This document shows, one piece after another, positions 5,003 through 58,811 of a DNA stretch of 64,000 nt. The notes below the pieces were generated by a model that was given only the letters and a program-made list of their open reading frames with translations, was not told the origin of the DNA and did no database searches. The stretch covers positions 76,132,120 through 76,196,119 of the forward strand of contig NC_060259.1 in NCBI RefSeq assembly GCF_921293095.1, written 5' to 3'. Origin of the DNA: Ischnura elegans. Lineage: Eukaryota > Arthropoda > Insecta > Odonata > Coenagrionidae. A program made the position numbers and the translations under genes. The first letter of the stretch is position 1; the number at the start of each line of letters is the position of its first letter.

Positions 5003-5259
5003 CAGTGGCGTAACTAGGAATATGCTTTGGGGGAGCATTGGATGGAGGCCTCCCCAAGCAATGGGGTTTCCGGGAAAATTTTTGAAAAATGATATGCCTG
5101 GAAATACATTTTACATCATTTTGGCACTTAAAATTCAACTTAAAGCAGATGCAGTTATTACATGTCAAAATAGACATAAGTTTTAAATATTTTTTTATTT
5201 CTCTGAGGCTTTGGGGGGGGGGGATCTGTCCCCTCATCCCCCCCATAGTTACGTCACTG
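5003..5259. mobile_element. hAT-like miniature element E (257 bp)
   Basis: Left end CAGTGGCGTAACTAGG and right end CATAGTTACGTCACTG are inverted repeats. A perfect 8-bp direct repeat, ATTTTAAT, flanks it at 4995-5002 and 5260-5267. The interior has a long G run near 5213 and no coding capacity. It sits 21 bp to the right of element D. Confidence 0.8.
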
Positions 5260-8234: not shown

Positions 8235-9945
8235 TTTCTTCCTGCAGCATCTTTGCTGGCTGTGTTTACATTCTGCCCAGTCAGCCTGCGACTATTTACT
8301 CGGATTTCTGCTTTATTGCTGATGAGGCTATTACTTGCTCTGGCTTACCTGAAAAATTGTTATTGTTGGTCAATTTCAACCTTCCTGAAGCTGTCTGCAC
8401 TAACAATCCTGGCATCTGGCACGAAGCTAACCTGGCTACCATATATGCTCTTTAGCTACTTAACTGTGTCCGAAACTATTGGGGAGTTATTCTGGAGTAA
8501 GTTTTTCTTCCATTTTGTCCATTGAACTGTCTCCTCAAGTTGGAGCAGTATATGATCTATTTTTACCTGAGGGCCAACACCGTCCTGGTTTATCTGTGTG
8601 GCTAACACTTCTAAAATCCATTTTCTTGAGCAAGGAGAAATATGTACATGGTTATCAGAAGTATAATTTTGATGCCATTTTTCACAGACTTCTTCTCTTA
8701 CCCTCATCAAAAGTTGAACCTGCTTGTAATGAGTTTTGCCATAATACATAAACATAACATACATAATGTATAAACTTAATCATCAGTGACAATAAACCTA
8801 CCTAATGAGAGTGTTGTCTGCAATTTTTCCGGAGTGGTTTTCTAAGGAACTTAAACAACTACTGATAAGAAAGGAAATTGCCCATAAACTATGTAAATAA
8901 TCATTGAGGTTAAGGAAACTATAACAGCTCTTTATTAGTTTTTAAAATTATTTGCTAGAAAAAGAGTTATCTCCTTCAAATGTGGATCTGAAATCACAAC
9001 ACACGATTACATACTCAACAACACTGTTTTAAATAGAATCTCTAAAGCCAAGAACCTAGGAGTTTTTATAACATCATCGCTCTGTCCCATGGAGCACATC
9101 ACTGCAAGGGCAAACTAATGGGAGTCATCCTTAGATCCACAAAGGCCTTCAACTGCCGCCACACTCCTGTGATCTGGCATAAATTACTGTCTGTCCAGTA
9201 CTGGAGTAAGGGTCCACAATATGATCTCTTCATTAGCTAAATCACATTGGCCAGCTTGAAAGCATCTAGTGCCACTTCATCTGGTTACTTGGCTGCAGAC
9301 TTGGAATTAGTTATTCACACACTCCTGTGAATGAAGTGGCAGGGGCACAGCTAGGATTTAAGGCTGGGGGGGAGGGGGTTAAGGTGCAACTAATCCCGGG
9401 GTGTGTGGGAGTATGGAATACCCACCAGGATAAGCGGTTGGTGCGAGATTAATAAATTGTGGAAATTATAAGATAAATGGTTCAAAATGTTGAGTTTTAC
9501 GGCTTTCTGAGGGATATTTTATTAATCCTTATTCATTTCTATTAGTAATATCAATCCAATTAAGTAAAATGGATTAAACTTATAAATTTCTCTGAGCTCT
9601 GGGGGGGGGTTTACCCCCCAAAACCCCCTCTCACTGTGCCACTGTGAAGTGGCACCCATCTTTGGCCTCTCCCATTTACATCTCAGGGGGTAACATGCAG
9701 ATTTGACGACTCTCTTCAAGCTGGTGAATGCCTTCATGGTCTGCCCAGATCTCAACAGAATTCACTTTCAGATTCCAACCATGGGAACCCGATCCTAGAT
9801 GATGTTCTGTAGATGCTGCCAACATACCTACCACACTTACAACAGCAGACTCTCAAGGCTAATGTACACCGGAAATGGAACCGCTACTCACCTAGACTTC
9901 TTCAATGAGTCATTGTCATCGTTGCAGAGAAAGGTCGGCACCCAG
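8235..9945 (+). mobile_element. Decayed non-LTR retrotransposon fragment (endonuclease, linker and RT C-terminus)
   Basis: Reading the + strand across frameshifts and stops reveals LINE protein remnants in the right order. Near 8254-8460 is endonuclease text (CVYILPS, YSDF, then LLLVNFNLPE, the usual GDFNLP strand). Near 8537-8620 is VGAVYDLFLPEGQHRPGLSV, like the end of the endonuclease domain. Near 8835-8885 is the linker (FSKELKQLLIRKE). Near 9010-9230 is the RT thumb (YILNNTVLNRISKAKNLGVF and MGVILRSTKAFN). Near 9650-9940 is the C-terminal region. Most of the RT palm is missing, so there is a large internal deletion. It is a dead Jockey/CR1-like copy. A hAT-like element (9340-9644) is inserted in it. 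Confidence 0.65.
9340..9644 (+). mobile_element. hAT-like miniature element, family M, copy A (305 bp)
   Basis: It begins CAGGGGCACAGCTAGG and ends TCACTGTGCCACTG. Perfect 8-bp repeats TGAAGTGG flank it at 9332-9339 and 9645-9652, and removing the element and one repeat restores the LINE fragment. It is about as long as copy B (57118-57422, opposite orientation) and closely related to copy C (57441-58033). It contains CCAATTAAGTAAAATGG near 9556, the empty version of the site that carries a TTAA insertion in copy C. There is no transposase. Confidence 0.85.
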
Positions 9946-12228: not shown

Positions 12229-14850
12229 GGATTAGTTTTACTGCATTTAGGTTTTGAGTTCATCCTATTCAGGGAAAGAAATTTACCTCTTTTTGATGAA
12301 AACTATAAAATTTTGATTGCCAGTACATTTACCGAAAAACTATAAAATTATTTGCTCTAGATTCAGTTAGTGGGGTTGTTTTAATCATATTGAAAATTAC
12401 ATGTAATGTAATAAAAGCGTACTTATTTGAGATACATAACCATGATGAAATATTTAGAACAAATCCTCACTCTGGCACTCTACAGGCACATAGGAAAATT
12501 GATTTGTCAGGTAGTACTGTTTGGGATTGTTTTTATCGTGACAGTTGTACTTTACTGTCAAAAGAAGTACATTAAAATTTATGTTGTGGTTTCTTTCACA
12601 CGTTTTAAAAATTTCCCTGGCTCATAATACTGGGTTCAAGTTAATGTTATTGAAAACCTAAAAGTAATAAGCAGTTTTATTGTCATTTCAATTTAATATT
12701 TTCCTTTCTCTTGCTGTATAGCAGCATCAGAAATGGGCAAAAAAGCTCCAGAAGTGCGAGTTGAGGTTGTAATAACCAGTTCGCCACTTTTTTCTGGCAT
12801 CATAACATTATTATATATGCTTAGTTCTTGACATTTATTTATTTATTTCCACACCTTGGAAAACAGTACTATTTGGCCTTTACATCAGGGTTTATGATAA
12901 CATGTAACAATCACCTAGGTCGGCAATGACATGCGATTTTTAGGAGATACATATTTCCCTTGATGGAATCGTGAAGAATTACTACACACACTCAAAAGCT
13001 AATGCAAAGGTTCTTCAAAGGAAACTTGCTGCTCTGATGTTGCAACATAAAGAGCACTTATCTGCTGCATGTTTGGGAGTGTAACAGTTGAGGCCTAATA
13101 AGACTTGTCAAATTTTTTTAGATTGAAACAAGGTCCCTGGGAAATCATGTGAAAATGGGCCGTGGGAGATCAAGATTTGGCTTACAATATTAGGAAAATA
13201 AAGAAGGGGGGTGAATAACAGAAAAAGAAATCAAGTAATCATAATGATAGTTTTGTAAGGATAGAGTTACAAAAAGATGTTATGGGTATACAGCAAGACG
13301 TAGAGAGAGGTTGGGGAAGTGGGAGAGATGTATATATATTCAGAATGTATATTATGGGATGGATACTGGTTACATGATCAACCGGAAATGTAACACTATA
13401 GCAAATGCCTTGGAAACAGAGGTTGGATATTTCCCATGAAAGGTTGTACATTTTAGAACATACTTCTGTAGATGATGAGAAAATTTCGATTCCACTATAG
13501 CCTGCTGAATGTAATGGAAAATCAAGGAAAATAATTTCTGATCCTGTTTTTTGTTCACTTCATATCAGAAATTAAGTTTTGAAATTTTTTCCTGGATCAA
13601 ATTTGCTCTCTTCATTGAAATCTGATTTCACAGCACTGAATTTTCTGAATCAGCACTGATTTCAGGGATGTGAAACTATGTTAAAACCTTGAAATATTAT
13701 TAACTGCCAACAAAGCCCTTAGTAATTTTTTTTTCAAATTCAGATGACTTTCTAAAATAATCACTTATAGAGATGAAGTCATTTACACTGCAGCCATCTC
13801 AGTTGTGACTGACAGTGACTATAACTTTGAAAATAATAATAAGGAAATTTAAAGCTTCTTTGAATCTGTAGGTATAATGCATAATACGTGTATGATGTAT
13901 GTATTTACTATAACTGTTGAGTGAATACAACCCATAAACCACCAATAATTTTTGGTCATGTCTTCACATATTGCCTTTCAGAAGTCAAATTTGGTTCAAT
14001 TGAATATTTTCTTAAATTTTATTCTGCATTATTCCATCTCTGATTGTCAGAAAAAATTATCCTCTTAATGCAGCCCTCAAAAGTATACATTTTGTAATTA
14101 TTGTAAATTTCATTGAGGATATATGTGCCCAAATTTCAGTGCTCGCACGTTATTATTAGAGTTCAATTCTGGTGACACCTTTGAAGAGATTGTGGTGTTG
14201 GTCTGGTCTCCAGAGAAGATTACTATGTGCCTTGTGTTAACAAAAGTGGCAATATGCTCAGTAAACAGTATCACAGTTATTCAGGCTTTCTTATCCCTAT
14301 TGTAATTTCCCTCATCTCTATCAAAAAGCCATCCTTATGATATTATTAAGCCACGATAGTTAAAGTGACCATACGTCGTAGCTTGGATGGGACAGTCCCA
14401 GTTTATGAGGGTCCCATCAGTTTCTAAGAATTCTCTACAATGTCCCCGTTTGGTTTAAAAATAATGGGAATTATGTTTTTATAATTAACAGAGAGTGTAA
14501 CACAATATGACAACAAGTGTAGAATAAAATTTAACTAGCAACTTCAACATACAATAATGAAATAGCAATTATTTAAGAACACTATCAGTTTGGAGCTGAA
14601 TAAAATCTCAACCACCATTGTAATGTTCTTTACTTTTGCTGTTCATAATTATTGTGCTATGTGTATTCATAACTTCTTTTTGACAGGTCTTACGTATGTA
14701 TGTATCAACGTATCTACTGGAATCAAAAAGCTTTTATTATCATCATGTTTTATGTGTAATGCAATATCCATTTTCACGCATGCTAGTCAATGATTAAATG
14801 TCAAGTGGCAATCTTCTGTACTAAAATAACTAAATTCTTGTTCATTGCAG
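12229..14850. other. Intron 2 of the phosphatase gene, 3' part
   Basis: No exon is supported here. A stretch near 12721-12766 has an AG acceptor-like start and a GTTGT-like end, but no insertion is expected between exons 2 and 3 of this family. Around 14364-14440 the text AGTGACCATACGTCGTAGC resembles the end of a known type of dispersed DNA element; only one end is visible. Confidence 0.5.
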
Positions 14851-22660: not shown

Positions 22661-23803
22661 CTTACTTACTCTTACTTACTCCCAGGGCCATACATATCTA
22701 AGTAGATATTTGGCCGCACCAACAATCCTCTTCCATCTATCTCTATTTCCTGCGTCCTCCTCGGTCGCTCCTAATCGCTCCAGGTCTACCTTCACTTGGT
22801 CCCACCACCTTCGCCTTGGTCTTCCTCTTGGCCTTCTTCCTTCAGGATTCCTCATTATAACTTGTTTTAAATGATTAGTGTCCTCTCTTCTCAAAATGTG
22901 CCCAGCCCATCTAATTCTTCTACATTTAAACTCGCACACTACATCTGGATCCTTGTATAGCTCTCTTAATTCTCTATTGTGTTTTCTCCTCCACTCTCCT
23001 CCTTCAGAGATTGGTCCATATATTTTCCTAAGGATCTTATTTTCAAAAACAATTAATTTTCTTTCTTCCTTTTTATCCAGTTTCCAAGTTTCACTTCCAT
23101 ATAACAGTACGGGTCTTATGATTGTTTTATATATTCTGATTTTAGTAGTGTGTGATAGTAATTTTGAGGACATGAGTTTGTTGCAGGCGTAGAAGCATCT
23201 GTTAGCCAGATTTAGCCTGTTTTGTATTTCTATTGCTTCTTTGTTTTCTCTTGAAATAAAAATGCCTAAATACTTAAAGGAGTCCACTTTTTCAAATTTG
23301 TGGTTGTCTATGTAGAGAGGATTTTGATTTCTGTTCATTTCATTTCTTGTAAAGTGTATATATTTAGTTTTTCCATCATTTACTTTTAGTCCTAGATTAG
23401 CTGTTTCTTCCATGAAAAGTTTTGTAAGCCGGCGTATGTCGTCTAAATTTTCTGCTAAAATTACCACATCGTCTGCAAAAGCAAGTATATTTATTCTGGA
23501 GCCAATTGTTACGCCTTCGTCCATTTTTGCTACTTTTTGAAGAGCTTCTTCTATTGCTAAGTTGAATAGGATTGGGGATAGTCCATCACCCTGTCTTACG
23601 CCTGCCTTTATCCTGAAAGGTTCCGACACCCGTGCATTTATTCGTACTGAGCATGTGGAGTCTGTCATACTTGTTTTAGCAAGGTTTATTAGCTTTTTTG
23701 GAATTCCGAACTTGTCCAACTTTTCCCACAGTCTCTCTCTATTAATCACTAAAAACTAGTTAACTAGTTAAAACTAATCTATTAATAATTATTTATCTAT
23801 TAA
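22661..23803 (-). mobile_element. 5'-truncated non-LTR retrotransposon with 17-bp target duplication
   Basis: A perfect 17-bp direct repeat, TCATTTATCAAGAGATA, flanks the insertion at 22644-22660 and 23804-23820, the signature of target-primed reverse transcription. On the minus strand the element starts inside the reverse transcriptase (near 23755) and ends in a short tandem tail of AAGTAAGTAAG-type repeats (22661-22680). About 48 bp of extra AT-rich text (23756-23803) separates the truncated coding end from the duplication; it repeats pieces of nearby sequence (TCTATTAAT, ACTAGTTA), as seen at imprecise 5' junctions. The insertion lies in intron 5 of the phosphatase gene, antisense to it. 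Confidence 0.9.
22676..23749 (-). CDS. Non-LTR retrotransposon reverse transcriptase (partial, 357 aa)
   Basis: This is the C-terminal half of a reverse transcriptase that copies element RNA at a nicked chromosomal target. Visible motifs are GVRQGDGLSPILFNL (RT motif B), FADDVVIL (motif C with both catalytic Asp), KYLGIFIS (motif E) and LLYGSETW (thumb). The C-terminal WAGHILRRED and RRPRGRPRRRWWDQV are characteristic of the endonuclease-RT proteins common in insect genomes. Motif A and the endonuclease are lost by 5' truncation, so it cannot be functional alone. The frame is open to its stop, which argues for a recent insertion. The clade (RTE-like or a relative) is not resolved. Confidence 0.85.
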   Translation of the reverse strand: MINRERLWEKLDKFGIPKKLINLAKTSMTDSTCSVRINARVSEPFRIKAGVRQGDGLSPILFNLAIEEALQKVAKMDEGVTIGSRINILAFADDVVILAENLDDIRRLTKLFMEETANLGLKVNDGKTKYIHFTRNEMNRNQNPLYIDNHKFEKVDSFKYLGIFISRENKEAIEIQNRLNLANRCFYACNKLMSSKLLSHTTKIRIYKTIIRPVLLYGSETWKLDKKEERKLIVFENKILRKIYGPISEGGEWRRKHNRELRELYKDPDVVCEFKCRRIRWAGHILRREDTNHLKQVIMRNPEGRRPRGRPRRRWWDQVKVDLERLGATEEDAGNRDRWKRIVGAAKYLLRYVWPWE

Positions 23804-25695: not shown

Positions 25696-25931
25696 TAACA
25701 AAGTAACATTATCAAGACTTTTTTATTTATTTTTTTGATAATGTTACTCTGTAATGAAACTATGGTCGGAAAGAATAAAAATCATGTGGGAACAGCAAAG
25801 TATTGATGCCTTCAATTCCTACTAATATTACAGATTTTGGATTTTCTGGATATTGACATAAAGGATTTGGATTCTATAGTGGACAAAATGAATTCATACT
25901 AAATGATATTAAATGATTTTTCTATCTACAG

Positions 25932-26178
25932 AAGTTGAAGTTAGACTTCAGCCTTTTCCAGCTGGTTCGTGATATGAGGAAGCAGCGTATAGCAATGGTG
26001 CAAACCAAGGATCAATATATTCTTGTTCATCAGGCAGTGAAGGAACTCTTTCAAGATCAGCTACGAATGATCAACTCGCATCCATACGAAAATATTGATA
26101 TTAGGGGCCTTCCTATTGTGCCAATCTTGTCTTCCAAAGCAGCTATTCTCTATCCTGGTCAATCTTCTCCTCTTGAAG
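25932..26178 (+). CDS. PTP-PEST-type phosphatase, exon 6 (Q-loop, end of catalytic domain)
   Basis: It follows CTACAG in phase 0 and ends in phase 1 before GTATGT. It encodes residues about 266-347. LFQLVRDMRKQRIAMVQTKDQY matches the vertebrate F-x-L-I-x-E-M-R-x-Q-R-x-x-x-V-Q-T-x-E-Q-Y segment; the two Gln of VQTKDQY (about 289 and 293) are the Q-loop that positions the hydrolytic water. The domain closes with HQAVKELFQDQL. The remaining residues (IDIRGLPIVPILSSKA and so on) begin the linker to the tail. Confidence 0.95.
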
Positions 26179-26750
26179 GTATGTCACATTTCTCTCATCG
26201 TTACATATTTTTTGGATGGAATGTTTGGTATGTAATTAAAATGCCTTGTCACTCTTTTAATGGCTTATTCACAGTTACTGGAAGGTTTGAGGGTGTACAT
26301 TTTAATATTTAAGGCATAATAGAAAAAATTGACAAGGTAGGGATGAGAGCCACATTACGTAAGGATAAGATGTATGTATTGTTTTCTGGGAGACAAAACT
26401 TATGTAATGTGATAATTAGAAGTGTGGAATTTTGTGTATTAAATCATGCCTAAAGACTCAGGGAAAGGAATAACCAGTGTGTTCACTGGCATAAGAAAAT
26501 CGTAATATTTTTTTTGTTTCTCTACTGCCCTTTCAGATAGTGTTTCAATGGCAAACAAATCAACTTGCTCTTCACAGTAACCCCTTCCACTCCCTATCGA
26601 TAAGGCCCTTGGCTTCTGGCTTCGGAATCTCAACGCTTACCAAATCTAGAAGGTCCGAATGCCAAGGCACTGTTCCATTTTCTAGGGTGGTATGAATGTG
26701 CGGTTAATGGGCAGCATTCTAATCATTTTGTGGTATAATAATAATAATAA
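26179..26750. other. Intron 6 of the phosphatase gene, 5' end
   Basis: No exon or complete repeat is seen. The last 20 bases are ATA repeats that belong to the tail of the LINE interrupted by the adjoining Tigger element. Confidence 0.5.
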
Positions 26751-29139: not shown

Positions 29140-31290
29140 ATAATTTATTTGTCCGGCGATTTGTTCTCACAAATATAGGACACGTCAATTATGGTACAAA
29201 AATACATAGATACAAAAAACTACAAGGTATTACCATACATCATGTAAAAAGCAAGGTGTTATGGATGAAGAAAAGCATCCACAGAATAAAATAACTTTTT
29301 CAAAAGAAACTCATGAAGCTTTGATTTGAAGAGATATATGTTTTTGACTCCCTTCACTTCTGGTGGGAGTTTGTTAAATAGCAGTAGGCCCATGTGCCAA
29401 GGTGCATAACTTGAGTTCTTGGTTCTTGTAAATGTTTGATGGAGGCTTGTAGAACTCCTTGTATAATGACAGTGGTAATCACTATTTGTTGCATAATTCG
29501 AAAGATTCTTTTTTGCACAGACAATTACAGCATACATATATACACAGGGGAGAGGTAAAATGTTGAATTTCTTAAAAAGAGGGCGACATGGAGCATAAAC
29601 AGGCACCTTGCCGATAATACGGAGTATCCTCTTTTGAATTTTGAAGATTATTTTGGAATTGGGTCTAGGGCCCCAGAAGAGTATACTAAACATTACATGT
29701 GAGTAGAATTCACCATAATAAATTGATAATAGTACATCAATATCTACAGTTTTTCGGATAGACAGGATCAAAAAACAGACAGAACTCAATTTACTGCGAA
29801 GCTTCTGAATATGTTCCTCCCAAGATATTTGATTATCAAGAGTTACACCCAGGAAAGAGGAACTGAGGTTTTGTGGAATAGGTTTACCATCAGTCTTGAC
29901 AGAGATCTGTGATTGCTGTTTATTCTTGTTGCAAAAGTAAATTAAATTAGATTTCTCCACATTGAGGAGGAGAGAATTTTGATTACACCACTCTTGTAAG
30001 ACACGTGCTGCATCATTAGATTTTAAGGTCAGGCTTTCCATTGATGTGGCAGACACTAAAACATTGGTATCATCAGTGTACAATACTGGAAGTACACCTG
30101 GTACATATTTAAACATATCTGGGAGGTCATTTATAAATAAAAGGAACAGAACTGGTCCCAGGACTGAGCCCTGGGGAACGCCCATGACAATTTTTTTCTC
30201 AGGGGACATAAAATTGGTTCCATCCCTTCTAAGGACAACACTTTGTCGCCTATCACTCAGGTAAGACTCAATCCACTTGTAGCCTGCACCTCTAATTCCA
30301 AACATTTCAAGTTTTTGCAGTAATAGACCGTGATTGACACAGTCAAACGCTTTAGAAAAGTCAAAGGAGAGAATAAGTGATTCTAGTCTGTTATCCAGAT
30401 CATCTAATATTTTATTCACAACCTGGTAAGTGGCAGTAGTAGTAGACCTTGATTTCCTAAAGCCATGTTGGGCGGTGGATAATAATTTTTGAGATTCCAA
30501 ATAAGCTATGAGACGTGAATAAAATACTACCTCAAAAATCTTACTGAACTGATTCAGTAGAGAGATTGGACGATATGAATTCATCCTCTGTCGACTGCCC
30601 TTACCTTTGTATAGAGGGATGATCTTTGCTACTTTGAGTGGACCTGGAAAAATGCCTAACCGTAAAGATTCATTGATCAAGAATAATAATGGGGACATGA
30701 TTGCATGGAAAGAACGCTTTATTACAACCATTGGAATCTCATCAAGGCCAGCAGTAAACTTATTGCTTAGTTTCCGGATAACATTCCTTAATTCTGAATC
30801 AGAACAAGGCTGAAGAAATAAGGAATTACAAGGTGTTACTGTTCGGGAATATTTAGTATGTTGATTCAATTTGGGTAGTTGATGTGACAGGAAAAAATCA
30901 TTGAGGGCAGAGGCCATTTGAAAATTATCATCCAAAATGGTATTGTCCTGGGAGTTCAAGAGTTTAAAGTCTGACCTATTACTCTTGCTATGTTTCGATT
31001 CTTTAACAATTTTCCAAATTTCTTTAGTTTTATTTGCTGCATTATTAATTCTTTGGTTATTGTATGTCTTCTTGGCATTCTGAAGGATATACCTATAATT
31101 CTTTTTCAAGACAGTATACTCGCGTCTATCAGTGGGGTCCGTTTTACCATTGAAGTACAGAGCCAAATCTTTCATGTACCTCGATAAGTTACGAATTTCT
31201 TGCGAGACCCAAGGTTTTTTGTAGCTTGTCCTTGAATAACTTCTACTTTTTACTGGCAAGATGGGAAAGCAATAGTCGAAGTACTCTAGG
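29140..31290 (-). mobile_element. 5'-truncated non-LTR retrotransposon, Jockey/CR1-like
   Basis: On the minus strand this element starts at about 31290 in the segment between endonuclease and RT (EYFDYCFPILPVKSR), continues through an open RT of about 666 codons, and ends in a short 3' UTR with AAATAAATTATTA-type tail. The tail is split by the Tigger element: matching ATA repeats resume at about 26734-26750. The 5' junction adjoins the dispersed repeat R copy 2. It lies in intron 6 of the phosphatase gene, antisense to it. Confidence 0.8.
29259..31259 (-). CDS. Non-LTR retrotransposon reverse transcriptase (666 aa)
   Basis: An uninterrupted RT frame. In order: KVAKIIPLYKGKG and NSYRPISLLNQFSKIFE (RT motifs 1 and 2), AQHGFRKSRSTTTA, LILSFDFSKAFDCVNH (motif A, first catalytic Asp), GVPQGSVLGPVLFLLFINDL (motif B), LYTDDTNVL (motif C; YTDD in place of the usual YADD, both Asp kept), FLGVTLDNQISWEEHI (motif E), and a thumb with FWGPRPNSKIIFKIQKRILR. 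The N-terminal endonuclease is missing through 5' truncation; translation from the displayed start is hypothetical since the frame is open further upstream to about 31310. With no stop or frameshift in about 2 kb, the insertion looks fairly young. Function: copying element RNA into DNA at the target site. Confidence 0.88.
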   Translation of the reverse strand: MPVKSRSYSRTSYKKPWVSQEIRNLSRYMKDLALYFNGKTDPTDRREYTVLKKNYRYILQNAKKTYNNQRINNAANKTKEIWKIVKESKHSKSNRSDFKLLNSQDNTILDDNFQMASALNDFFLSHQLPKLNQHTKYSRTVTPCNSLFLQPCSDSELRNVIRKLSNKFTAGLDEIPMVVIKRSFHAIMSPLLFLINESLRLGIFPGPLKVAKIIPLYKGKGSRQRMNSYRPISLLNQFSKIFEVVFYSRLIAYLESQKLLSTAQHGFRKSRSTTTATYQVVNKILDDLDNRLESLILSFDFSKAFDCVNHGLLLQKLEMFGIRGAGYKWIESYLSDRRQSVVLRRDGTNFMSPEKKIVMGVPQGSVLGPVLFLLFINDLPDMFKYVPGVLPVLYTDDTNVLVSATSMESLTLKSNDAARVLQEWCNQNSLLLNVEKSNLIYFCNKNKQQSQISVKTDGKPIPQNLSSSFLGVTLDNQISWEEHIQKLRSKLSSVCFLILSIRKTVDIDVLLSIYYGEFYSHVMFSILFWGPRPNSKIIFKIQKRILRIIGKVPVYAPCRPLFKKFNILPLPCVYMYAVIVCAKKNLSNYATNSDYHCHYTRSSTSLHQTFTRTKNSSYAPWHMGLLLFNKLPPEVKGVKNIYLFKSKLHEFLLKKLFYSVDAFLHP

Positions 31291-31293
31291 TAT

Positions 31294-31980
31294 GATGAGT
31301 ATACTTGGCATACTTAAATTTACCCAGTTCCCATAGAAGTCATATCACATTTTTCGACTTATGGCAAACTTCACAATCAAAAAAAGATGTGGTACAGCTA
31401 GTGCAGCTGAAGTCATACTACGGAGTTGTACTGGTCGTACTTAAGAAACATGGTGAACATGGGCAAAATGGATGGCTTTATCATTTTTTGGTAAAAGTAT
31501 TATTATTATAGCGACCTTGGCTACACTTTTAGGTTAAGTGTTTTTTTTAAGATAATGCATTTGTGTTTAAAAGCCTCACAAAGGAAACTTATCACCTAAT
31601 TTTTGACTCCAATGTTTACGTTTGCTTTTGAAGTTGTAAAAGTTTTGACTAGATGTGTGATGTTTTGGTAAAATTTCATGCATTTGTTTATGTTCACACC
31701 CAGCTGATAATTTAAAATAGTGTTTCAAAATTAAAGACTGTCTCTATTAGTATTTTTGTTTCTTAGTAGATTGATAATGTATGCAACGTAACATACTACA
31801 GCAAAATTTAAGCACCTCATGGACCCATTTCAGTCTCCATCCCATTGCCAAATGAGTTCCTCACACCTTCCCAGGACAAAAATTATTCTCCAAGGCACAC
31901 TTAAATATTCTAAGACGGTCATTTTTTATACAAATCATCACTTTTATCTGTAAAATTTATCTTTCAGTACTATACATACA
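31294..31980 (+). repeat. Dispersed repeat R, copy 2
   Basis: This is collinear with 4085-6215 minus the insertions of that copy. The identity is moderate, so both are old. There is no coding capacity or recognised family. It lies beside the 5' end of the LINE. Confidence 0.6.
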
Positions 31981-42197: not shown

Positions 42198-42776
42198 CTA
42201 AATGCGATGGTGGTTGGCGTAACATGGTGAAACTCCTTCATGATGCACAAAGGTTAAGAAAACACTTCGCTGTTTCACAAAATAAAATATATTTGCGACC
42301 GGTTTTGATACAGTGTATCATCATCTGGCAATTACAAGTATCAGTACATCGAATTTATACCCTTGAAGGCGTAAGAGGGGCGGTGGAGTGGAGGTGGAGA
42401 AAGGGGGGGGAATGGGGGAGGGGGTAAGGGAAGGGAAGGTAGGTTTGGGAAGTACATCGCTGATGGGTCACTGCACAGGGTAGCCGAGGGTTGGTGTATG
42501 ATCCCGTATTTCGTCATCATACACCAACCCTCGGCTACCCCGTGCAGTGACCCATCAGCGACGTACTTCCCCAACCTACCTTCCCTTCCCTTACCCCCTC
42601 CCCCATTCCCCCCCCTTTCTCCACCTCCACTCCACTGCCCCTCTAACACCTTCAAGGGTATAAATTCGATGTACTGATACTTGTAATTGCCAGATGATGA
42701 TACGCTGTATCAAAACCGGTCGCAAATATATTTTATTTTGTGAAACAGCGAAGTCTTTTCTTAAACTTTGTGCATC
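42198..42776. mobile_element. Foldback element Q: 261-bp inverted repeat with 13-nt loop
   Basis: Arms 42242-42502 and 42516-42776 are inverted copies of each other with only scattered mismatches, separated by 13 nt. The arms include GCGACCGGTTTTGATACAG, a purine-rich run (42375-42445) and CGAGGGTTGGTGTATGAT at the centre. A 44-bp leader (42198-42241) lies only on the left and contains GGCGTAACATGGTGAAACTCC. The direct repeat CTGAGGCCCCATG occurs at 42185-42197 and 42777-42789, consistent with a 13-bp target duplication around leader plus hairpin. The open frames on both strands are consequences of the palindrome. Confidence 0.75.
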
Positions 42777-42819
42777 CTGAGGCCCCATGTTGATGAGACA
42801 CTCTTAAATGTCCTTGTAG

Positions 42820-46391: not shown

Positions 46392-47216
46392 GTATTAAAA
46401 AAACAACAGCAGTACTTATGATTTTTTATGAATGAGACCATGTATGTTCCTTCTGAGATATCATTGAAAATAAATTCTTTTTTATTATTGCTGTTTTTCT
46501 TTCTAATAGCTCCAATTTCCAAAGTCCTCATAATTTTTCATAATATTTTTCCTTCGATATAACTTTATCTATTTATTTCCTTAGTAGTCATTGGGTCATT
46601 TTTGCAGATAAAACCAGGGATTTCATTTGCTGTGCTGCTTTTCCGCAGTAGGAAAGGGGGCATTCAACGGTTTTAACCATCATTTTTTTTTAAATTTTGT
46701 TGCAGATTATTTAAATAACTTATAATAACTTCTCTCATGTTTGTTGTCCTTATTTCATGAACACCCACGTTTGTTGTTACATAGCCTATTTATTTTAATG
46801 GGATGTCACATAAATTGTGACCATTCAATGGCAGGATAAAGAATGGTATTGAGTGCTTGAAAGAGAAATATGAAGTACTCTTGTTTACACTATCTCTGAA
46901 AATTGTGACTTCACTGCTTTGGGAATGGCATGAGTTTTCTATTCAGAGTCCATGGTAGAGGGGTCCGAAGTTTTCAGGATCAAATTAGGAAAGGGGTAAA
47001 CCAAAAGTAATTAAGGAGGAGTCAGTAAATAATTGTGAAAAATACTAGAGAGATGGTGACATGTTATAATAAGATGATAATATAATTGGAGAAATGTGTT
47101 TTCTTTTAATTCTTCAATTAGCTATAACTGATACATAGGTTAGCACAAATCTTTATTTTGCACTGGTGTCTCTCATGCTTTTGAAAATATTGCCCAATAT
47201 ACTCTTTCCCATGCAG
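46392..47216. other. Intron 11 of the phosphatase gene
   Basis: No repeat or exon was recognised. It ends CTTTCCCATGCAG before exon 12. Confidence 0.5.
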
Positions 47217-47250
47217 GTGTTTACCCATGCTAAGAAGTTCATGGCTCTTG
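47217..47250 (+). CDS. PTP-PEST-type phosphatase, exon 12 (preferred model)
   Basis: After CATGCAG the phase-0 frame reads VFTHAKKFMAL and reaches a CTTG|GTAATA donor in phase 1, which fits the acceptor at 49701. The alternative is that this exon continues past 47250 (GNKKEYWLKKATT) up to and into the Tigger element at 47287, where the frame stays open to a stop at 47649. Without the Tigger the same frame would stop soon after the junction (near 49311). I prefer the spliced model because phases match, but transcript data are needed. Confidence 0.45.
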
Positions 47251-47286
47251 GTAATAAAAAAGAGTACTGGTTGAAAAAGGCAACTA

Positions 47287-49283
47287 CAGTAAAACCTCTA
47301 TGTAGTGAACCTCTCTACATCGAAAACCTCTATACATCATACCAACCCTCTGGTCCCGTCAGTTTTACATGTAAATTTATAGGCAAACCTCTCTATAGTG
47401 AACCTCTTTATACCGTAAAACCTCTATATATCATAGCAACGAGACACCCCCGAGACGGCCTAACTACCTCCGCATTTCGTACCGAGACAACTAGAGACCA
47501 TCAATGCAGCCGCGATTACGAACATGGAATGACATTATCAGCGATAAATGTTTCACGCTTATTTTTTTCTTATACACCTTTAATAATTTTCACGTTAACC
47601 ATTAGTTTGGGCCATTTTGTTCCATATGAGAGCATACCTAACAGTAAATAAGAAAAAGGCATCCAACTCTCCTAATCATGTTAAGTGGCAGTTAATGATG
47701 ATGATGACAGAAGACATTGTTTTCTCTCAAAATCTTCAAAATCTTGCGATAGCAATCGCTTTCATTTACTTATGGCTTTATTTTCTTGTAAGTGCCTACA
47801 TACAATGTTCAGTTAATAAAAGAGGCGACCAGCGCAGCTTATAATCACTTGCTGGCGGAAATATTTCAACCAACTTCACTCCCATCCATGGAGACAGAAT
47901 TACTCGACCGCATTGCTACTTCTGCTTCTAAAATGAAAATATTTCATGAATATACTGCGACTTGAAATAAATCAAATACAATTTTGTAATTATTTCATTC
48001 CCACATTTTGCGGTATAGCACTTTCTTACTACCGCCTTGGTAATTTTTTCGATGCTTTCGTGAACGATCGTAGTTTATAATTTATTGCGGTTAGCGACAT
48101 ATGTCTTGCCTGCGTATTTATGCCGCAAAATCTTCCATCGGGAGTCCGGGATGTCAATTTCTAGCAATACTGACGAACATCAATCCATGCGCAACAATGT
48201 GAGGTGAAGGAGAAAGCTAATTAGCTGATATGCGGTCGGGCAAGGAAATTTCTTACAGTCGCCGCCGCATTCTAAAGTAGTTCGCCCAGCATTCTCGCCG
48301 GGAAATCACGTCCTTTCGCAGACCTAGCATTTTTGTGTGCCCCTGACAGATTTTTTCTTCGGAACACTACTTGCATTATATTTTGGAGAGAGAGAATTCA
48401 ATGAACTTTTCAAAATTGTGCTCAATTTCTTGTCTATTTTTTGCAGTAGTCACATGTTTATTTATATTTTTATAATTTTTAACAAGTCAAATGTTATAAG
48501 AATGATAAATCAGTTCTCTAAAAGATATTATCAGGAGTATTTTCAATTATTGCCCATAAAATATAAAAATTACTTAATTAATCATAGGCTGATGATGGAT
48601 TCGAGAAATAAAAGAAGGCGACTACTTGACATTACCACATAATTAGCTATTTCTCTAGCCATCAACGAGGGCTGGCAGAAGGATGATGTAGCAGTGACCT
48701 TTGGAAAGCCATCATTCACCCTGACATCTATTTTAAACAACCAAGGAAAAACATAAGAAACTGTCTATCTAGGCTGCACAATTAAAATACTCAGGCAGTG
48801 AAATACGAGGATGAAGAAATTATGTTGAGAAATATAAAACTATTGTACTCTCCTCCGAACACTATTAGTAAATTGAATAATTTCTTAGGTCAAAAGGCAT
48901 TAACGAAAACAGCTAGTGATTTATTTATAGTGAAAATGACATTAAAAAGTGCTCATGTAATTGAAAACATTATTTCAAAAGAGTTTGGAAAAAATTTTAA
49001 GCAAAACCAATAACTAATTTATTTTCTAAAAAGGCCTCTTTAACTAGTTACTTTACCTTTGTGTAATCCTTTTCCTAATGTATAACTGTAAATATATGTT
49101 CACTTATGCATGCATATATGTTTAAATATAGTTATTTAATGATTAAAAAGACAGTAGCACCTTTCATTTCCCAACGATATGAAAAAATGGTGCCTTCCAC
49201 TAAAACCTCTCTATAGTGAACCTCCATACATCAAATTGCCCAAATTTTGGTCCCCTCCATTACGATGTAAAGAGGTTTTACTG
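47287..49283 (+). mobile_element. Tigger/pogo-type DNA transposon, internally deleted, copy 2 (1997 bp)
   Basis: CAGTAAAACCTCT at the left and its inverse at the right, flanked by TA (47285-47286, 49284-49285). The subterminal AACCTCTCTATAGTGAACCTC repeats, the non-coding 5' part (for example TTAATAAAAGAGGCGACCAG near 47813) and the transposase fragments align with copy 1 (26753-29137) in the opposite orientation. It is about 390 bp shorter than copy 1 and lies 36 bp after the proposed end of phosphatase exon 12. Confidence 0.88.
48565..49010 (+). pseudogene. Tigger-type transposase remnants in copy 2
   Basis: NYLINHRLMMDSRNKRRRLL followed by DITT corresponds to the N-terminal DNA-binding fragment of copy 1, then stops. 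MLRNIKLLYSPPNTISKLN matches the F-P-P-N-T-T catalytic segment with mutations (the PLDQG is lost). The same junction between the two fragments (GGCTGCACA.. to ..GCAGTGAAATA) occurs in both copies. Confidence 0.65.
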
Positions 49284-57117: not shown

Positions 57118-57422
57118 CAGTGGCGCAGCGAGGGGGGGTTTTGGGGGATTAAACCCCCCCCCCCCCCCAGAGCTCAGAGAAATTTTTGAGTTTAATCCAT
57201 TTTACTTAATTGGATTGATATTACTAATATAATATTGTAAGGATTAATAAAATATCCCTTAAAAAGCTGTAAAACTCACCATTTTTAACCGTTTATCTTA
57301 AAATTCCGCAAGTTATTAATCTTGCATCTACCTCTTATCCTGGTGGGTATTCCATACCCCCACACACCCCGGTATTAGTTGCCCCTAAACCCCCCCAGCC
57401 TTAATTCCAAGCTGCGCCCCTG
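57118..57422 (-). mobile_element. hAT-like miniature element, family M, copy B (305 bp)
   Basis: The reverse-orientation sister of copy A (9340-9644), about the same length. Ends CAGTGGCGCAGCGAGG and GCTGCGCCCCTG; flanking octamers TCCTAGGG (57110-57117) and TCCCAGGG (57423-57430) differ at one base. It retains the uninterrupted CCATTTTACTTAATTGG site (about 57199-57215). Confidence 0.85.
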
Positions 57423-57440
57423 TCCCAGGGTACTCCGCTT

Positions 57441-58033
57441 CAGGGGCGTAGCTAGGAATTAAGGCTGGGGGGGGTTTAGGTGCAACTACCCACCAGGATA
57501 AGCGGTTGGTGCGAGATTAATTAATTGCGGAATTTTAAGATATATAGTTCAAAATGGTGAGTTTTACGGCTTTCTGAGGGATATTTTATTAATCCTTACA
57601 CTATTTTATTAGTAATATCAATCCAATTAACCCTCTTAGTGCTATTCTTCTTCCTGGGGTACTGGCGAGAAACGCGGAGGGTATTTTTATAAAATGTAGC
57701 TATAAGGAAAAAAAACATTACGAAGATATTTTATTACATGTCCATAAGCGGTTTTTTAAATTATTGAGGTTAAACTGGCTAACATTGACAAAATATTTTT
57801 GGATTTACTGAAATAAAATATAGCAATGTAATAAGTTATATGAAATTATATAATGTACTACGTAAGAGCCGATATATCGGCCCGCCGCACTTTTTGCCCG
57901 AGCTGCAAAAGCCGATATATCGGCCAGCCGCACTAAAAGGGTTAAGTAAAATGGATCAAACTTAAACATTTCCATGAGCTCTGTGGGGGGGGGGGGGTTT
58001 ACCCCCCAAATCCCCCCCCTCGCTGCGCCACTG
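57441..58033 (+). mobile_element. hAT-like miniature element, family M, copy C, with nested insertion
   Basis: Begins CAGGGGCGTAGCTAGG and ends CGCTGCGCCACTG; perfect octamers CTCCGCTT flank at 57433-57440 and 58034-58041. It is split by a TTAA element at 57631-57941; without it the length is 278 bp. It lies 18 bp from copy B in the opposite orientation. Confidence 0.88.
57631..57941. mobile_element. TTAA-inserted piggyBac-like miniature element (311 bp)
   Basis: Bounded by TTAA at 57627-57630 and 57942-57945, with terminal inverted repeats CCCTCTTAGTGC and GCACTAAAAGGG (11 of 12 paired). The right half contains the perfect palindrome GCCGATATATCGGC twice (57868-57881 and 57911-57924). It interrupts family M copy C; copies A and B show the same site with one TTAA. 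Confidence 0.9.
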
Positions 58034-58811
58034 CTCCGCTTGTCTCCTTCCGGGCGGTTACTTTCAGCGGCGCTTTGGTGATATGCAGTCATTCTTAGTG
58101 ATGATGCGTCCGTAGTTTGATTTTCATAGACATGATACTTGTTGGTAGATATTCATCAATAATTTTCAAGCATTGTTTTTTTTAGCTGGTGCAGTAAACA
58201 TTTCATTGGGGGACAAGCGAAAGATTGCCAATTTTCCGTATTTTTCAGAAATTTCAGGAGCCGTCCTACTCGTTATCCGCCACTTTTGCCTTGGAACCTA
58301 TTATTTTTATTAGTTTTTTTGCATTACTAATTTTGAACTTAATGTGGTAAAAGGTAAGATTCCAAATGGTTCAGGCGTTCATACTGGTCATTATTAGCGG
58401 TTTCTAACTCAAGTTAGCGTAGAAAGCGAATTTCGCTACAATTTTGGTACTATCTTTTCATGGTTCGCTAGCATTAGCTGTATCTAACCCTTTGCGTCTA
58501 ATGAACATGAATGTATGCTCAGTTGTGCTTTTCCAATGCGTAACCTATGTTTCGTAACCCAGTTAAGATAAATGGCTGTGCCCCCTGCCAATACTGCCTG
58601 CGCACTTAAACGGATGTATCAATCAGTCGGTAGGGACATCTCACTCACAATCTGTGGCAGCGTTACTTTTTTTCGCCAATGTCATCACGGATCGTCTGCC
58701 GATCGCGAACTCATTTATTTTGCCTCATCCAAAAGTGCTGCATTAGTTCTGACTTCAGTAACACCGTCCTGGCATGCCCTTCTCGATTTACTGGGACGAT
58801 CGATATCATAT

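Follow-up and report, generated by a model that had tools for sequence, protein, structure and literature searches.

One copy, C, of a short repeat of the hAT type in the window (the whole 64-kb stretch of Ischnura elegans DNA that was analysed) carries a 311-bp insert at 57631-57941, which we assign, with a probability of about 0.88, to the piggyBac superfamily as a MITE-sized, non-coding, non-autonomous element. The insertion into copy C is real beyond reasonable doubt, because two sister copies of the same repeat, A and B, have the site empty, besides the chance figures for TTAA-flanked ends given below. Taken as an insertion, the element is ordinary; its value lies in its ends.

The host of the insert, copy C, lies on the plus strand at 57441-58033 and has the ends CAGGGGCGTAGC and CAGTGGCGCAGC; the whole 593 bp sits inside an intact 8-bp target-site duplication (TSD), CTCCGCTT at 57433-57440 and 58034-58041. 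Copy A (9340-9644, plus strand) is flanked by TGAAGTGG twice, and copy B (57118-57422, minus strand) by TCCTAGGG and TCCCAGGG, two TSD copies that differ by one base. Elements of the hAT type are marked by a TSD of 8 bp and by short inverted ends of the form CAG...CTG, and both features occur in A, B and C. The empty site, CCAATTAAGTAAAATGG, contains one TTAA and was located at 9556-9572 in A and at 57197-57213 on the minus strand in B. Joining the flanks of the insert in C by script gave the same string as the empty site. The TTAA target therefore stands once in each of the two empty sister copies and twice in C, the one filled site: the left copy at 57627-57630, matched in place by the single TTAA of A and B, and the right copy at 57942-57945. 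The original prediction had described an element with matching ends between two TTAA copies in C, and two sister copies with a single TTAA and no insert, all of which is present in the sequence; its empty-site position near 9556 in A was right, and the one in B (57199-57215, minus strand) was 2 bp off.

Since each copy has its own 8-bp duplication, A, B and C are independent hAT-type insertions rather than one duplicated block. Their pairwise identities were 88.9% for A-B (298 aligned bases), 89.3% for A-C (271) and 89.5% for B-C (277), so that neither of the empty copies is a particularly close relative of C. A stretch of 28 bp common to A and B is missing from C. Copies B and C (57118-58033) are inverted to each other, with 18 bp between them, and each has an 8-bp duplication to itself. 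By eye, another short hAT-like element was recognised at 5005-5259; it reads CAGTGGCGTAACTAGG...GTTACGTCACTG, has the 8-bp duplication ATTTTAAT and matches copy C in short stretches only.

The age of the insert relative to its host needs separate treatment. It had been predicted that the insert came later than the burst of the hAT-like family, a date that goes beyond what the empty sites in A and B can give. They place the insert after the point at which C's source lineage parted from A and B, not necessarily after C's own landing. The insert may already have been inside a larger C-type hAT copy that jumped, in which case it would be older than C's insertion here, a difference of timing only. 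The intact TSD of C, which encloses the entire 593 bp, agrees with such a composite jump, and C, the only copy without the 28 bp common to A and B, may stem from a distinct source subfamily. The composite jump needs a mobile 593-bp hAT derivative; nothing direct speaks against it, and we consider it unlikely while granting it an appreciable share of the probability. Far less credible is an insert that was ancestral to the hAT family and was lost from A and B by seamless excision. Excision of the piggyBac type is described as scarless (PMC13405395), but this history needs two independent losses where one gain suffices, and the three copies are about equally distant from one another at the identities given above.

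The two ends of the element are CCCTCTTAGTGC at 57631-57642 (plus strand) and CCCTTTTAGTGC, read inward on the minus strand, at 57930-57941. These terminal inverted repeats (TIRs) are alike at 11 of 12 bases, with base 5 as the sole mismatch, and the 12-bp tip is all that the left and right ends have in common. From base composition alone, the chance of at least 11 of 12 matching bases at this fixed TTAA pair is 4.5e-6. In 60 first-order Markov runs, we counted 12-bp TIRs with at most one mismatch that abut two TTAA 80-3000 bp apart. The simulations gave a mean of 0.067 such pairs per 64 kb (maximum 2), against six observed in the window, the element among them. Three of the other five come from the inverted pair of hAT copies B and C (57206, 57244 and 57298), and the remaining two lie in a fold-back at 42254 and at 14012. 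Under a stricter criterion of eight exact bases, the window contained five pairs against a simulated mean of 0.32; the element is not one of the five, because its mismatch falls at base 5. The fold-back is a long one (42238-42780), with two 265-nt arms that are 96% complementary and 13 nt between them. At 14012-14534, a TTAA pair 515 bp apart has the inverted ends ATTTTATTCTGC and ATTTTATTCTAC, which match over about 12 bp and could be chance.

The letters of the ends point to piggyBac. The piggyBac hallmark is described as a CC[C/T]T start of the ends, in inverted repeats of about 12-19 bp (PMC2872659), and the ends of the element, alike at 11 of 12 bp, begin with CCCT. In beetle piggyBac elements, CCCT is the most prevalent end motif (PMC12732532); many bee piggyBac elements start with CAC, so that CCC ends are not universal (PMC10140906). 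The original prediction had read piggyBac-type transposition from the TTAA duplication, which is not unique to this superfamily, as Kolobok elements have it too; the CCCT ends and the palindrome layout described below add to it. At 311 bp, the element is short and non-coding and has terminal inverted repeats, as expected of a MITE. Only one stop-to-stop ORF that reaches 110 aa overlaps the insert (57805-58152, minus strand); it runs out of the element and had no Pfam match at E 0.001. Among the 14 ORFs of at least 110 aa in the window, the Pfam scan returned no piggyBac domain; a Head_binding match on ORF 47139-47648 (E 0.015) was below the cut-off and was disregarded. No second copy of the element was found within the 64-kb window.

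The right end carries the same 14-bp palindrome, GCCGATATATCGGC, twice, which bears out the predicted double occurrence of a sequence in the right half. Counted from the right tip, the outer copy takes up bp 18-31 (57911-57924), with its centre at 24.5, and the inner copy bp 61-74 (57868-57881); they are candidate binding sites 1 and 2, respectively, of the C-terminal cysteine-rich domain (CRD) of the transposase. Each is preceded by a GCGG-type motif, AGTGCGGC, on the minus strand, with the outer copy at 57927-57934 (bp 8-15 from the right tip) and the inner copy at 57884-57891 (bp 51-58). Read inward, the right end runs CCCTTTT, AGTGCGGC, TG and the palindrome, followed later by AGTGCGGC, GG and the palindrome again. 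The two 24-bp units of motif plus palindrome are identical at 23 of 24 bases and lie 43 bp apart. No such palindrome was found at the left end. At the left end, a GCGG stands at bp 44-47 (57674-57677, plus strand), the position of the truncated G3RE motif (bp 44-48) in the right end of the bat element piggyBat (PMC11707139); we give this coincidence little weight, as it consists of four letters and was noticed after the fact.

We quantified the chance of such palindromes with 200,000 simulated sequences of 311 bp, generated from the element's own neighbour frequencies. Any 14-bp palindrome was present in 12,780 of the 200,000, one with its centre 23.5-25.5 bp away from an end in 250, and two identical 14-bp palindromes anywhere in 10. 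These figures are somewhat too small, because the whole window is richer in 14-bp palindromes than simulated: it contains 14 perfect ones, including the two of the element, against a mean of 5.9 and a maximum of 12 in 60 simulations. We rejected the idea that the palindrome pair is a separate folded-strand feature; the DNA fold had a z of -2.58 against 100 shuffles, and we think that this signal follows from the palindromes. Sub-terminal palindromes are present at the distance expected for piggyBac, on one end only, where they are candidates for CRD binding.

The palindrome letters and the tip of the element presumably differ from those of piggyBat, and the likeness concerns position, not sequence. 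By position, the right-end layout fits a piggyBac-type transposase, with piggyBat of Myotis lucifugus as the nearest case; what we note as new is that the right end is laid out much like the piggyBat left end. In that left end, GCGGGA stands at 11-16, 55-60 and 99-104, each time followed by an imperfect palindrome, with the P3 palindrome at 107-120; the unit recurs every 44 bp, and the right end is described as being without palindromes (PMC11707139). Common to both systems are a GCGG-type motif near bp 11 and a palindrome just inside it, the innermost in piggyBat being 14 bp long; the unit repeats at 44 bp in piggyBat and at 43 bp here, and the opposite end is palindrome-free in both. On the other hand, piggyBat has three units and imperfect palindromes, whereas the element has two units and perfect ones. 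The naming of left and right ends is arbitrary for the element, which, unlike piggyBat, is without a transposase.

Other members of the superfamily share parts of this picture. In piggyBac (IFP2) of Trichoplusia ni, the left end has a palindrome at bp 17-33 to which a CRD dimer binds (PMC7351741); piggyBac and the element share the TTAA target, and this palindrome compares by position with the outer one here, centred at 24.5. The 19-bp palindrome of piggyBac is on both ends (PMC11707139), whereas the palindromes of the element are on one end only. Coral CMITEs resemble the element in being small, in their TTAA duplication, in their CCC-type ends of 13-14 bp and in having an empty allele; they differ in their size of about 100 bp and their shared internal region, and the passages on them mention no one-sided repeated palindrome unit (PMC2872659). 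The human piggyBac-like element MER75B, likened here by its description, has sub-terminal inverted repeats at one end only (PMC12324416).

Two further identities have to be weighed against piggyBac. Kolobok elements also target and duplicate TTAA and have MITEs (T2-MITE), and the insert might be a non-autonomous member of that superfamily (PMC6004289). Their ends, however, are given as RR, with AG at the start of the ten Xenopus rows of Table 5 and AGGRR as the terminal letters of T2-MITEs (PMC6004289). The element begins with CCCT beside its TTAA, neither RR nor AG, and its palindrome layout matches piggyBac and piggyBat by position, which makes Kolobok membership very improbable. The TTAA length of the duplication is itself inferred, not proven, because a TA-targeting Tc1/mariner-like element with true ends ACCC...GGGT would leave identical joined letters at this one site. 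Such an element needs a T and an A flanking the TA by chance, and it leaves the CCCT ends and the palindromes at piggyBac positions unexplained; we give it hardly any credence.

Relatives were searched for with exact-match patterns. The genome contig collection gave 0 matches, and the viral contig collection gave 0 stretches for the palindrome unit or the end plus palindrome, and 0 for the empty hAT site. The short end TTAACCCTYTTAGTGC matched 18 viral stretches. In 17 of the 18, no partner end beside TTAA (at most 4 of 12 mismatches) was found up to 4 kb downstream; one stretch (L003) had such a partner end with 4 mismatches. We read these viral matches as chance rather than as relatives. The collections are made up of viral and prokaryotic sequences, so that an absence of matches in them is hardly informative for an animal transposon. 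No transposon paper was found for the end and palindrome letters by title or abstract start in open-licence PMC texts, a scope outside which Repbase and Dfam lie.

Elsewhere in the window, two minus-strand frames at 22676-23755 and 29259-31313 matched reverse transcriptase (Pfam RVT_1, E 2.2e-21 and 5.5e-32, respectively) and are by our judgement of the non-LTR type. A piece of a protein-tyrosine phosphatase domain on the plus strand at 25917-26309 (Pfam, E 1.5e-06) is possibly a host exon. The window gave no Rfam match at the gathering score and no tRNA.

The piggyBat transpososome offers a model of how the ends might work. It is described as a tetramer of asymmetric build, in which one dimer sits on the outside, at the tips, while the inner dimer, inactive in catalysis, promotes synapsis and is bound to the second palindrome of the left end. 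The DNA of that end is bent around bp 25, and activity is best with the innermost site deleted and falls on further deletion (PMC13405395). For the element, a piggyBac-type transposase encoded elsewhere would act in trans, cutting it from a donor site, and the excised element would be joined into the single TTAA of the hAT-type repeat, so that TTAA stands on both sides. The core of the transposase dimer would grip the tip and the AGTGCGGC motif, and its C-terminal cysteine-rich domains, acting in pairs, would recognise the GCCGATATATCGGC palindromes, at the right end alone. As in piggyBat, an outer catalytic dimer would then be accompanied by an inner dimer serving synapsis.

We tentatively propose, at somewhat less than even odds, that the element represents a minimal piggyBat-type arrangement, in which one end has exactly two core-plus-palindrome transposase sites, spaced by 43 bp, and the opposite end has none. 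In MER75, MER85, Looper and invertebrate piggyBac-like elements, both ends are described as sharing repeats of a sub-terminal or inner kind, and MER75B as having them at one (PMC12324416); the both-end repeats of the invertebrate elements count against the one-sided proposal. The left end may also have lost its palindromes by decay. If the one-sided arrangement is true, the asymmetric four-subunit synapse whose structure was solved for bat piggyBat would be at work in a separate lineage that has a recognition palindrome of its own, and a small element would have retained just the two-site end that is reported as optimal for piggyBat. A compact natural element whose perfect palindrome lies at the piggyBac/piggyBat distance and is doubled, at a piggyBat-like spacing, on one end only is a clean case on which to test if end asymmetry is general in the superfamily, and if its copies are many, their ages and end variants would reveal which sites are kept by selection on mobility.
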